A stretch of 64,000 nucleotides of DNA from Armatimonadota bacterium (GTDB lineage Bacteria > Armatimonadota > Fimbriimonadia > Fimbriimonadales > Fimbriimonadaceae), in contig JAEURN010000008.1 of assembly GCA_016789105.1 (NCBI GenBank), forward strand, positions 248,001 through 312,000, written 5' to 3'. A model generated the notes under the pieces. It was not told where the DNA came from and searched no databases. It worked only from the letters and a program-made list of their open reading frames with translations. The position numbers and the translations under genes are program-made. This document shows, piece by piece, positions 55,416 to 60,152 of this stretch (positions are counted from its first letter, which is position 1; each line of letters starts with the position of its first letter).

Positions 55416-55638
55416 GGGCGGGGAGGGGCTTTAGTGTATCCCGAAAGCGCGATTCTGCCATCAAGGGACTCAGGGGCGGCCACAGAGGCGCCAATTTCCT
55501 TAACCCGATCTTGAAGGGCTGCACGGCTCGGGGGAGCAGACAACGCTCCCAGCCGGCAACCTAGCAAATTTATTAGTGAATCAAATAGGAAAGTCTGATA
55601 GTCTGTTGATGCACCCTGTTTGGGGAGTTGAGGAAAAA
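55416..55638. other. Intergenic region between GYF-like gene and PEP-CTERM gene 3
   Basis: This divergent control region of 223 bp holds a TACACT box for the minus-strand gene. The last ~75 bp are A/T-rich (AATTTATTAGTGAATCAAAT), a likely promoter for the PEP-CTERM gene with AGGAAA as ribosome-binding site. No gene seen. Confidence 0.35.
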
Positions 55639-56370
55639 ATGAAAATCACTGCAATAATCTCGGTCTTTGCGTGTGCGGCTGTGGCTTCGGCGGTTGATGT
55701 CGTCGCCCCGAATGCCTTCGCAGCCACCGAGGGCCCAGGAACTTTTTCGCTGACCACTAACACGGCCGGCGGCCGCGTATACCAAATGGTCATCGATTCT
55801 TCTCAGTTGACCGGGCTGGTCGGGACTAACTTGGATGGCATGTCGTTCCGGCTGAATTCCGGGGCTACCTGGCCCCCCGTCCAGGTCGATATGTCTCAGT
55901 TCGACATTTGGGTTGGGGAAGGAGTCGACCCGACGGCGATCACGACGACGGTCGACAGCAACTTCATCGGCACGGCGACACAAGTCCGCTCGGGGGCGAT
56001 TTCGTTCTTCCCCGGTGACTTCCCGACCGGGGGGACGCCCAACGGGTTTGGGCCCAATTTCGGATTCAACTTGGGCAGCTACGCCTACAACGGCGGCGAT
56101 TTGGCGGTTCTCATCCGATTCGCCACCCAAACCCCCATCGGGGGCACGGCCGGACAAGCCGCGTTCGACGCCATTGCGGCCACTGACACCGCCAACGGTT
56201 ATGGATCCCTCTTCGCCGCCAAGTGGCAAAGTGGATCCACCTCCACGACCGTGAACTCCAACGGAAACTTCATCGTCACAAAGTTCAGCGGCACCCCGGT
56301 GCCAGAGCCGATGACCCTCGGTCTGCTGGGTTTGGGCGGACTCGCCGCGTTGCGCCGCCGAAAGAAGTAA
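55639..56370 (+). CDS. PEP-CTERM sorted surface protein 3
   Basis: The 243-residue exported protein has a signal peptide ending near ASA, a beta-sandwich-like body, and the C-terminal sorting signal TPVPEPMTLGLLGLGGLAALRRRKK. AGGAA precedes ATG 55639; the longer reading is unsupported. It differs in its body from the pair at 48-49.6 kb. Surface attachment by exosortase is established for the signal; the role is unknown. Confidence 0.85.
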   Translation: MKITAIISVFACAAVASAVDVVAPNAFAATEGPGTFSLTTNTAGGRVYQMVIDSSQLTGLVGTNLDGMSFRLNSGATWPPVQVDMSQFDIWVGEGVDPTAITTTVDSNFIGTATQVRSGAISFFPGDFPTGGTPNGFGPNFGFNLGSYAYNGGDLAVLIRFATQTPIGGTAGQAAFDAIAATDTANGYGSLFAAKWQSGSTSTTVNSNGNFIVTKFSGTPVPEPMTLGLLGLGGLAALRRRKK

Positions 56371-57952: not shown

Positions 57953-59098
57953 CTAAGCCTGATCGTCGCCAAGCGTGATGGTCAGTGTTTTGGTCTCGCC
58001 TCGCGACCAAATCTTGACCGTAAGCTTTGCCCCCGGCTTTTTATCCGCCATGAACACTTGGTAGTCCTCGGTGGCGTGCATCGGCTTGCCGTTGATTTCG
58101 GTGATGACGTCGAGCGGGGCCATGCCCGCCTGGGCCGCCGGACCTTGGAAGACCTGGCTGACGATGACGCCTTCCGTCGGTGGTTCAGACTGGGCCCCGG
58201 TTTGGGATTTGAGCCGTGCCCGGATCTGCGGAATGCCGAGGATGCTGCTGTCGCTGCGCACGGCGATTCCGATGCGACCATAACGCGCCCGTCCGAACTT
58301 CAAAATTTCGTCAACAACGGTCTTGACCCGGTTCACGGGAATCGCAAATCCGATCCCAACCGAGCCTTGGTCCGTTGAGGCGATCATCGAATTGATCCCG
58401 ATCAGCCGGCCTTGGGCATCGCACAGCGCCCCACCCGAGTTCCCATGGTTGATGGCCGCGTCAGTTTGGATGCCGTCGACGAAAATGGCGTAGTCGTCGG
58501 TTTTCAGCGGTCGCTTGGTGTTGCTGACGATGCCCACGCTGACCGTTTGTTCAAATCCAAGGGGGTTTCCGGCTGCAATGGCCCACTGGCCGACTTCCAA
58601 GGACTCGCTGTCGCCAACCTCGATCGGGGTGAGGCCCCCGTGCTTCACCTGCAGAACCGCGATGTCGGATCGTTCGTCGCTACCGATGACCTTGGCTTCG
58701 GCGGTGGTGCCGTCGCTGAACTTGACCAGGATTTTGTCGGCCGTCCGGTTGCCCCCGGCAGTCACCACATGGTTGTTGGTGACGATGTGCCCATCGGTGC
58801 TGAGCACGACCCCGCTCCCGGTCCCGCTGGGCTCGATGTACCGTTCGCCAAACCAGTTTTCCCCTTCCATCAACGTCGTCACGCTGACAACGCTCGGCAA
58901 GATTTTTTTCGCCGCGGCCCGGAAATCGGGCAATGATTTCGCCGCATTCTGGACCTCCACGCTGGAAACGGTGCTCGGTTCAATGCGGTACACCGCCGGG
59001 CTTTGCGATGCCGCCCCTACTTTAAACGCAACCAAGGAGGCGGCGAACACCACGCCGAACAACCCCACGCCCATCAAAATCACGTGTCCTGGCTTCAT
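57953..59098 (-). CDS. HtrA/Deg-family periplasmic serine protease with PDZ domain
   Basis: The 381-residue protein has an N-terminal membrane anchor (about 5-26), a trypsin-like domain with the triad His (TNNHVVT, about 106), Asp (ERSDIAVL, about 143) and Ser (NHGNSGGAL, about 221), and one PDZ domain (about 290-375). It degrades or refolds misfolded envelope proteins. The amber stop is followed in frame by 25 further sense codons before TAA at 57875-57877. Start ATG 59098 with AGGAA upstream. Confidence 0.93.
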   Translation of the reverse strand: MKPGHVILMGVGLFGVVFAASLVAFKVGAASQSPAVYRIEPSTVSSVEVQNAAKSLPDFRAAAKKILPSVVSVTTLMEGENWFGERYIEPSGTGSGVVLSTDGHIVTNNHVVTAGGNRTADKILVKFSDGTTAEAKVIGSDERSDIAVLQVKHGGLTPIEVGDSESLEVGQWAIAAGNPLGFEQTVSVGIVSNTKRPLKTDDYAIFVDGIQTDAAINHGNSGGALCDAQGRLIGINSMIASTDQGSVGIGFAIPVNRVKTVVDEILKFGRARYGRIGIAVRSDSSILGIPQIRARLKSQTGAQSEPPTEGVIVSQVFQGPAAQAGMAPLDVITEINGKPMHATEDYQVFMADKKPGAKLTVKIWSRGETKTLTITLGDDQA

Positions 59099-59170
59099 CG
59101 TCCGATTCCTACCCAACTGCCAATACGCAAAAATCCGTTCAGGCGATCCGGCATCTGCCCCGACCGGGCC

Positions 59171-59410
59171 CTAGTGCCGGTCCAGGAATTCCCGCATGGC
59201 ACTCCCAGCCTCTTCATTGCTCGGCTTAAAACCCCGGTTGTCGCGGTTGGTCCAAACAACCCATCCGTCATAGGAGATTTCCAGGATCCCACCCTTCCCG
59301 GGGACGAGCTCCGCCTCAAGTCCGAACTCCTCCCGGTACATCGCCGCCAACCTGGCGGCATGGGGGAGGTAGTTTCATTGCACGCAGTATTCAATGGTCA
59401 GCCTTGGCAC
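59171..59410 (-). CDS. SelW-like Rdx-family protein with in-frame UGA (candidate selenoprotein)
   Basis: Reading the UGA at 59377-59375 as selenocysteine gives a 79-residue protein beginning MPRLTIEYCVQ-U-NYLP. Cys9-x-x-Sec12 is the redox motif of the SelW/SelT/SelH (Rdx) thioredoxin-like fold, and the rest fits: NYLPHAARLAAMYREEFG, ELVPGKGGILEISYDG, then GFKPSNEE. No other Cys is present. GTG 59410 has TAGAAT 6 nt upstream. A SECIS-like hairpin lies 15 nt after the UGA. Alternatives are a Cys-to-stop pseudogene or a sequencing error. It is divergent from a peroxiredoxin-like gene. Confidence 0.75.
59343..59359 (-). promoter_or_regulatory. SECIS-like hairpin downstream of the UGA
   Basis: On the minus strand GCCGCCAGGTTGGCGGC folds into a 7-bp stem with apical loop GGU, starting 15 nt after the UGA. 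Bacterial SECIS elements have a stem in this position with G at the start of the apical loop, and E. coli fdhF also carries AGGU at its tip. It is internal to the coding sequence, as expected for bacteria. Confidence 0.55.
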
Positions 59411-59416
59411 GATTCC

Positions 59417-59422
59417 ATTCTA
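59417..59422 (-). promoter_or_regulatory. Leaderless -10 box of the Rdx gene
   Basis: TAGAAT on the minus strand ends 6 nt before GTG 59410. It also supplies the upstream in-frame stop, so GTG 59410 is the only usable start. Confidence 0.5.
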
Positions 59423-59453
59423 CATTGGCCCCGGGGACGCGGGAGGAATGCCA

Positions 59454-59459
59454 TAAACT
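59454..59459 (+). promoter_or_regulatory. Leaderless -10 box of the peroxiredoxin-like gene
   Basis: TAAACT ends 6 nt before ATG 59466. Together with the box at 59417 it makes a compact divergent promoter pair within 55 bp. Confidence 0.5.
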
Positions 59460-59465
59460 AGGTCC

Positions 59466-60152
59466 ATGAAAATGCTCCCCGTTGCCGTTGGTGTGCTCTG
59501 CGCTGCCGTGGTTGGCGCCGGGGTTTGGGTGCAGTCCGCCAAGCCGGCCTTCCGGGGGGTCAAAGTCAGCACCTACAACATCAAGGATGTCCCCCGGCAC
59601 CCGGTGACCAAGAAAATGGAAGTCGATGCGGCTTCGTTCGTTGGAGAACCTCTGCCACAGTTCCGACTCCCCGACACCCAGGGAGCCGAGATTGAAAGCA
59701 AAAAACTGCTCGGTGGCAAACCGGCAGTCGTTGTGATGACTAAGGACGGGTGCCCTTGTTCGATCGAGGCCCAGCCGTTCTTCACCGCGTTGGCCCGGCA
59801 CTACGGGTCGGATGTGCAATTCGTCGGCTTGTTCGATGCCGGAAGCCAGGCGGCAAAGAAATTCAAGACCGATTTCTCAGTCCCCTATCCGATCTTAGCG
59901 AGTGAGACCGATACCGTCTTCCGAGAATTTGGAGCCAAGCAGTCGGTTTACACGTACGTGGCCGACCAAGAAGGCACCGTCGTCCAGGTTTGGCCGGGAT
60001 ACAACAAAACGATGCTCAACGATTTGAACTTGGAGCTGAGCAAGCTATCCGGCAAACAACCCGCAAATTTAGACATGGAGATGGCGCCGGAAAAGATGAC
60101 CAGCGGATGCTTTTTCTTCCGCCCCGTCGGCACTGACAAGCCGGCATGGTAA
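59466..60152 (+). CDS. Exported AhpC/TSA-like thiol redox protein
   Basis: The 228-residue protein has an N-terminal signal or anchor (about 1-22), then a thioredoxin/peroxiredoxin fold: FVGEPLPQFRLPDTQG, KPAVVVMTKDGCPCSIEAQPFF with Cys96-Pro-Cys98, and a strand/helix pattern to VVQVWPGYNKTMLNDL. A C-x-C pair in place of the usual Cys arrangement is uncommon. Another Cys lies near the C-terminus (SGCFFF). Peroxidase or thiol-transfer function is inferred. It is divergently transcribed from the SelW-like gene. Confidence 0.75.
   Translation: MKMLPVAVGVLCAAVVGAGVWVQSAKPAFRGVKVSTYNIKDVPRHPVTKKMEVDAASFVGEPLPQFRLPDTQGAEIESKKLLGGKPAVVVMTKDGCPCSIEAQPFFTALARHYGSDVQFVGLFDAGSQAAKKFKTDFSVPYPILASETDTVFREFGAKQSVYTYVADQEGTVVQVWPGYNKTMLNDLNLELSKLSGKQPANLDMEMAPEKMTSGCFFFRPVGTDKPAW

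Follow-up and report, generated by a model that had tools for sequence, protein, structure and literature searches.

We analyzed a 64,000-nucleotide stretch of DNA (hereafter, the window), corresponding to C8:248001-312000 of a 2.75-Mb genome of the Fimbriimonadaceae (Armatimonadota) with 99.96% completeness. The following features were assigned to the locus, with positions given in window coordinates.

57953-59116, minus strand: HtrA/Deg serine protease, the downstream neighbor, on the same strand as the Rdx gene
59171-59410, minus strand: predicted Rdx/SelW-like selenoprotein gene (79 aa), with a GTG start at 59410-59408 and a TAG stop at 59173-59171
59343-59359, minus strand: putative bacterial SECIS, whose core hairpin GCCGCC-AGGUU-GGCGGC begins 15 nt past the UGA and shows covariation
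59375-59377, minus strand: in-frame UGA, putative selenocysteine (Sec), residue 12 and second position of C-V-Q-U, kept in phylum homologues
59417-59422, minus strand: probable -10 box TAGAAT, 6 nt ahead of the start codon, with NANNAT at this spacing in all seven genus members that have the gene
59466-60152, plus strand: AhpC/TSA (peroxiredoxin/ResA-like) protein, the divergent upstream neighbor, in an association conserved in the genus

Read directly, the minus strand from 59410 to 59171 encodes VPRLTIEYCVQ-UGA-NYLPHAARLAAMYREEFGLEAELVPGKGGILEISYDGWVVWTNRDNRGFKPSNEEAGSAMREFLDRH-TAG. A first-pass annotation had proposed that UGA replaces the second Cys of a CxxC motif in this frame, and the direct reading bore out both this placement (59377-59375) and the 67 sense codons that it had counted from the UGA to the TAG. 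The start that it had described as the single possible one was also recovered: GTG 59410 is the sole ATG, GTG, or TTG codon from the upstream in-frame TAG to the Cys, and it aligned with the ATG of congeners. As had been claimed, ordinary ORF calling breaks the gene at the UGA, the frame being open under translation table 11 just as a 59-aa fragment from TTG 59350 onward. A 152-aa antisense ORF (59003-59461, plus strand) spans the entire Rdx gene, and automatic callers could wrongly annotate it as a gene. The expressed product might be either this antisense ORF or the 59-aa ORF, both of which are open under table 11; we regard this as extremely improbable, given that the 59-aa ORF contains neither the first strand nor the redox motif, that the Rdx family match extends across the UGA, and that the conserved frame is that of the minus strand, also upstream of the UGA.

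The family assignment of the first-pass annotation was upheld by profile and structure comparisons. The read-through protein matched PF10262 (Rdx) at 46.6 bits (E = 4e-12; cut-off 22.6) and TIGR02174 (CXXU_selWTH) at 39.3 bits (cut-off 34.2), both above the curated cut-offs, and solved SelW-related structures matched it at E = 6e-11. Its best NCBIfam match by E-value (4e-16) was NF041051 (SelTWH_Campy), the score of 58.9 bits lying below the equivalog cut-off of 88 for this model. The AlphaFold model of the read-through protein (pLDDT 94.6) showed the SelW-related structures 2fa8, 2oka, and 2ojl as its best PDB matches (TM 0.84-0.85), and mouse SelW (2npb) also matched with 17% identity in the structural alignment. 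In the model, motif residues 9-12 come after the strand formed by residues 4-9, as in the thioredoxin-like fold of Rdx proteins. A CxxU motif at this place in a thioredoxin-like fold, where the first strand ends, points to thiol/selenol exchange. The product most likely serves in the cytosol as a small thiol/selenol oxidoreductase, with a Cys-Sec selenylsulfide formed in its cycle; its redox chemistry and substrates we infer from knowledge of the family. A redox function and an interaction with glutathione have been suggested for the SelW family (PMC1088965).

The conservation of the UGA was evaluated across the phylum. A search of 121 genomes with the read-through protein yielded 28 matches with exactly one TGA each, located at the same codon in every matching sequence that we read. 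The Pfam profile detected 33 Rdx matches in these 121 genomes and, across 291 genomes of Armatimonadota, 39 Rdx genes, of which 38 contained exactly one in-frame TGA and none a second stop. The TGA-bearing homologues were spread over many families of Armatimonadota. The sole Rdx gene without an in-frame stop encodes ITYCVPCGHQPHA, in which the motif is YCVPC with Cys at the Sec position. This Cys-form gene (L100:229-804) belongs to genome G176, in which selB is present, and it is a candidate for a Sec-to-Cys change. The alignment with relatives, which the first-pass annotation had named as a check, thus showed either UGA (38/39) or Cys (the remaining one) at this codon, and decayed copies, which it had listed as a refuting observation, were not found in relatives.

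Substitution patterns downstream of the UGA were those of a protein-coding sequence. In the two closest pairs, dN and dS after the UGA were 0.014 and 0.27 (L025 and L026) and 0.014 and 0.08 (the second pair, with few changes), and the comparison of the window gene with L023 gave a dN of 0.28 and a dS of 2.1. These values indicate that coding (purifying) selection persists past the UGA. An Rdx gene in which codon 12 had been altered by a nonsense mutation, or misread in sequencing, would also show an in-frame stop that breaks the ORF under table 11. The retention of the TGA in 38 of 39 homologues, drawn from many families, already refutes such a pseudogene, and the lack of other stops in the homologues, the dN far below dS past the stop, and the complete Sec machinery of the genome (described below) leave it with a negligible probability. 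The gene, seemingly broken by a stop, is very probably intact, because the UGA would be read as selenocysteine by the host.

The distribution of Rdx genes was also compared with that of selA. Among genomes with at least 90% completeness, Rdx genes were found in 25 of the 59 with selA and in none of the 34 without it (Fisher p = 1.3e-6, uncorrected for shared ancestry). Two genomes, G090 (73% complete) and G120 (88% complete), contained Rdx without a selA match, and both are incomplete. The congener G001 has selA and selD and is devoid of Rdx; therefore, the Rdx gene is dispensable, and the Sec machinery of G001 must be kept for other selenoproteins.

Profile searches of the genome itself recovered all four components whose presence had been put forward as a check on the selenoprotein proposal: selA (432 bits), selB (331.8 bits in a 650-aa frame; cut-off 242), selD (357 bits), and tRNA-Sec (72.7 bits), the last of which ARAGORN called as SeC with the anticodon tca (UCA). 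In the selD gene, too, a TGA lies in frame at the active-site position (SCSGUAGK), followed by a hairpin approximately 25 nt past the UGA; a selenoprotein is likewise predicted as the product of this gene (L018:1426-2475; C8, about 168775-169692, minus strand). Most selD genes of phylum relatives carry the TGA and a few do not, and many of the TGA-containing genes show a hairpin with a GUU, GUG, or GUC apex approximately 25 nt downstream.

General reassignment of UGA, or its decoding as Trp, Gly, or some other residue by a suppressor, would by itself produce an identical open frame through the codon. UGA is not generally reassigned in this genome, because RF2 is present (475 bits) and, of 45 long non-overlapping ORFs that the window contains, 18 stop at TGA, the DinB gene among them. 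Moreover, the tRNA with the UCA anticodon is tRNA-Sec, and a catalytic Cys occupies the corresponding position in the UGA-less phylum homologue and in solved family members. We accordingly give reassignment or suppression almost no weight against selenocysteine as the residue at codon 12.

The RNA downstream of the UGA was examined for a SECIS element. The hairpin has a stem of 6-7 bp and the loop AGGUU, in which G35 is invariant. The 66-nt stretch containing it folded with z = -3.4 against shuffles, and a longer stretch of 111 nt was not significant. In a gap-free alignment of 28 relatives, 89.3% of stem cells were paired, compared with 84.2 ± 0.8% in shuffled alignments (0 of 500 shuffles reached 89.3%), and eight cells were changed on both sides, compared with 1.3 after shuffling. 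Compensatory changes were found in stem pairs 30-42 (CG, AU, UA, GC, GU, and UG, and never unpaired) and 32-40 (CG, UG, and UA), and RNAalifold recovered the same stem. Several of the pairs overlap conserved Ala, Arg, and Leu codons, and pairing is therefore partly invariant for coding reasons. These comparative data identify the hairpin as a predicted bacterial SECIS element. A lower stem (CCUCCC/GGGAGG), conspicuous in the fold of the window sequence, is absent from relatives and was for this reason not counted as part of the SECIS; therefore, support is limited to the short upper hairpin. The Rfam scan of the window at gathering thresholds returned no match, and Rfam models evidently do not capture bacterial SECIS elements. 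In a whole-genome search with a covariance model of the Rdx SECIS, the Rdx gene was the only convincing match. The next match (C3:196202, E = 0.09) was read, showed no fitting in-frame TGA, and was taken as a chance hit.

Next to the start codon, the promoter box reported in the first-pass annotation was found as the -10-like hexamer TAGAAT (59422-59417), and the hexamer is kept in the genus: all seven members with an Rdx gene have NANNAT at identical spacing (TAGAAT, GATAAT, three CAAAAT, and two TACAAT). The hexamer is probably a -10 box, from which transcription would start at or beside the start codon and produce a leaderless mRNA. In the window, TANNNT motifs peaked 6-7 nt ahead of long-ORF starts, which suggests that leaderless transcripts may be common in this genome. 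Over-represented boxes at this distance include those before the starts at 59466, 60196, and 31670. Taken together, SelW of Armatimonadota may be nearly always a selenoprotein (38/39) whose mRNA in this genus is leaderless, with the UGA 33 nt and the SECIS at most approximately 70 nt from the 5' end; we advance this combined proposal tentatively and rate its chance at somewhat below even. If it is true, selenocysteine insertion would occur on a leaderless message.

The genomic context of the gene is partly shared within the genus. The Rdx gene and the AhpC/TSA gene have a common intergenic stretch of 55 bp, and a peroxiredoxin-like gene was located near Rdx in all six congeners with Rdx, with HtrA near it in five of the six. 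From this synteny, a redox link between the Rdx protein and its peroxiredoxin-like neighbor is at most a plausible guess. Elsewhere in the window, a protein encoded at 55576-56370 (plus strand) ends in a C-terminal PEP-CTERM sorting signal (PEPMTLGLLGLGGLAALRRRKK), and an exosortase system is therefore implied.

Based on these data, we consider it almost certain that 59171-59410 holds a functional gene for a selenoprotein belonging to the SelT/SelW/SelH (Rdx) family. In the proposed mechanism, the ribosome would start at GTG 59410 and reach the UGA at codon 12, where the SECIS hairpin 15 nt past the UGA would recruit SelB bearing Sec-tRNA(Sec), made by SelA using the selenophosphate of SelD. 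Selenocysteine would then be inserted and translation would proceed to the TAG, yielding a 79-residue thioredoxin-like protein with the C-V-Q-U redox motif ending the first strand. The insertion of Sec at the UGA we infer from knowledge of the family.

In the literature searched for selenocysteine in Armatimonadetes or Fimbriimonas, we found no relevant paper and no published selenoproteome for Armatimonadota. The present gene is a well-supported selenoprotein gene, with a predicted SECIS and the full Sec machinery, in a little-studied phylum, and standard gene calling would truncate or miss it. Genomes that have kept Sec can be set against the one Cys form as a natural comparison for the change from Sec to Cys; apart from this comparison and the phylum, the finding extends known biology.

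Bacterial selenoproteins of the SelW-like type have been on record since 2005 (PMC1088965), and the finding therefore adds a member from a phylum that has received little study. The CxxU proteins of this type form a classical family that is abundant in bacteria, with sources including the Sargasso Sea, Global Ocean Sampling, Geobacter, Desulfotalea, and Symbiobacterium (PMC1088965, PMC1794560, PMC2398784). They are among the most widespread selenoproteins in the Global Ocean set (427; PMC2398784), and very few Cys homologues occur in Sec-using bacteria (PMC1794560). The protein described here resembles them in family, in the CxxU motif, in the near-absence of Cys forms among Sec users, and in the position of the putative SECIS immediately 3' of the UGA with a small G-containing apical loop, whereas it differs in its phylum, in its probably leaderless mRNA, and in its linkage to HtrA and a peroxiredoxin-like gene. 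Among solved proteins, 2fa8, 2ojl, 2oka, 3dex, and 2obk share the fold and approximately 35% identity, and their CxxC aligns with C-V-Q-U; those of them that were aligned by sequence differ in that the second residue of their motif is Cys rather than Sec. The Rdx fold and the CxxU motif are also shared with mammalian SelW (mouse, 2npb). It differs in that the eukaryotic SECIS sits in the 3' UTR (PMC1088965).
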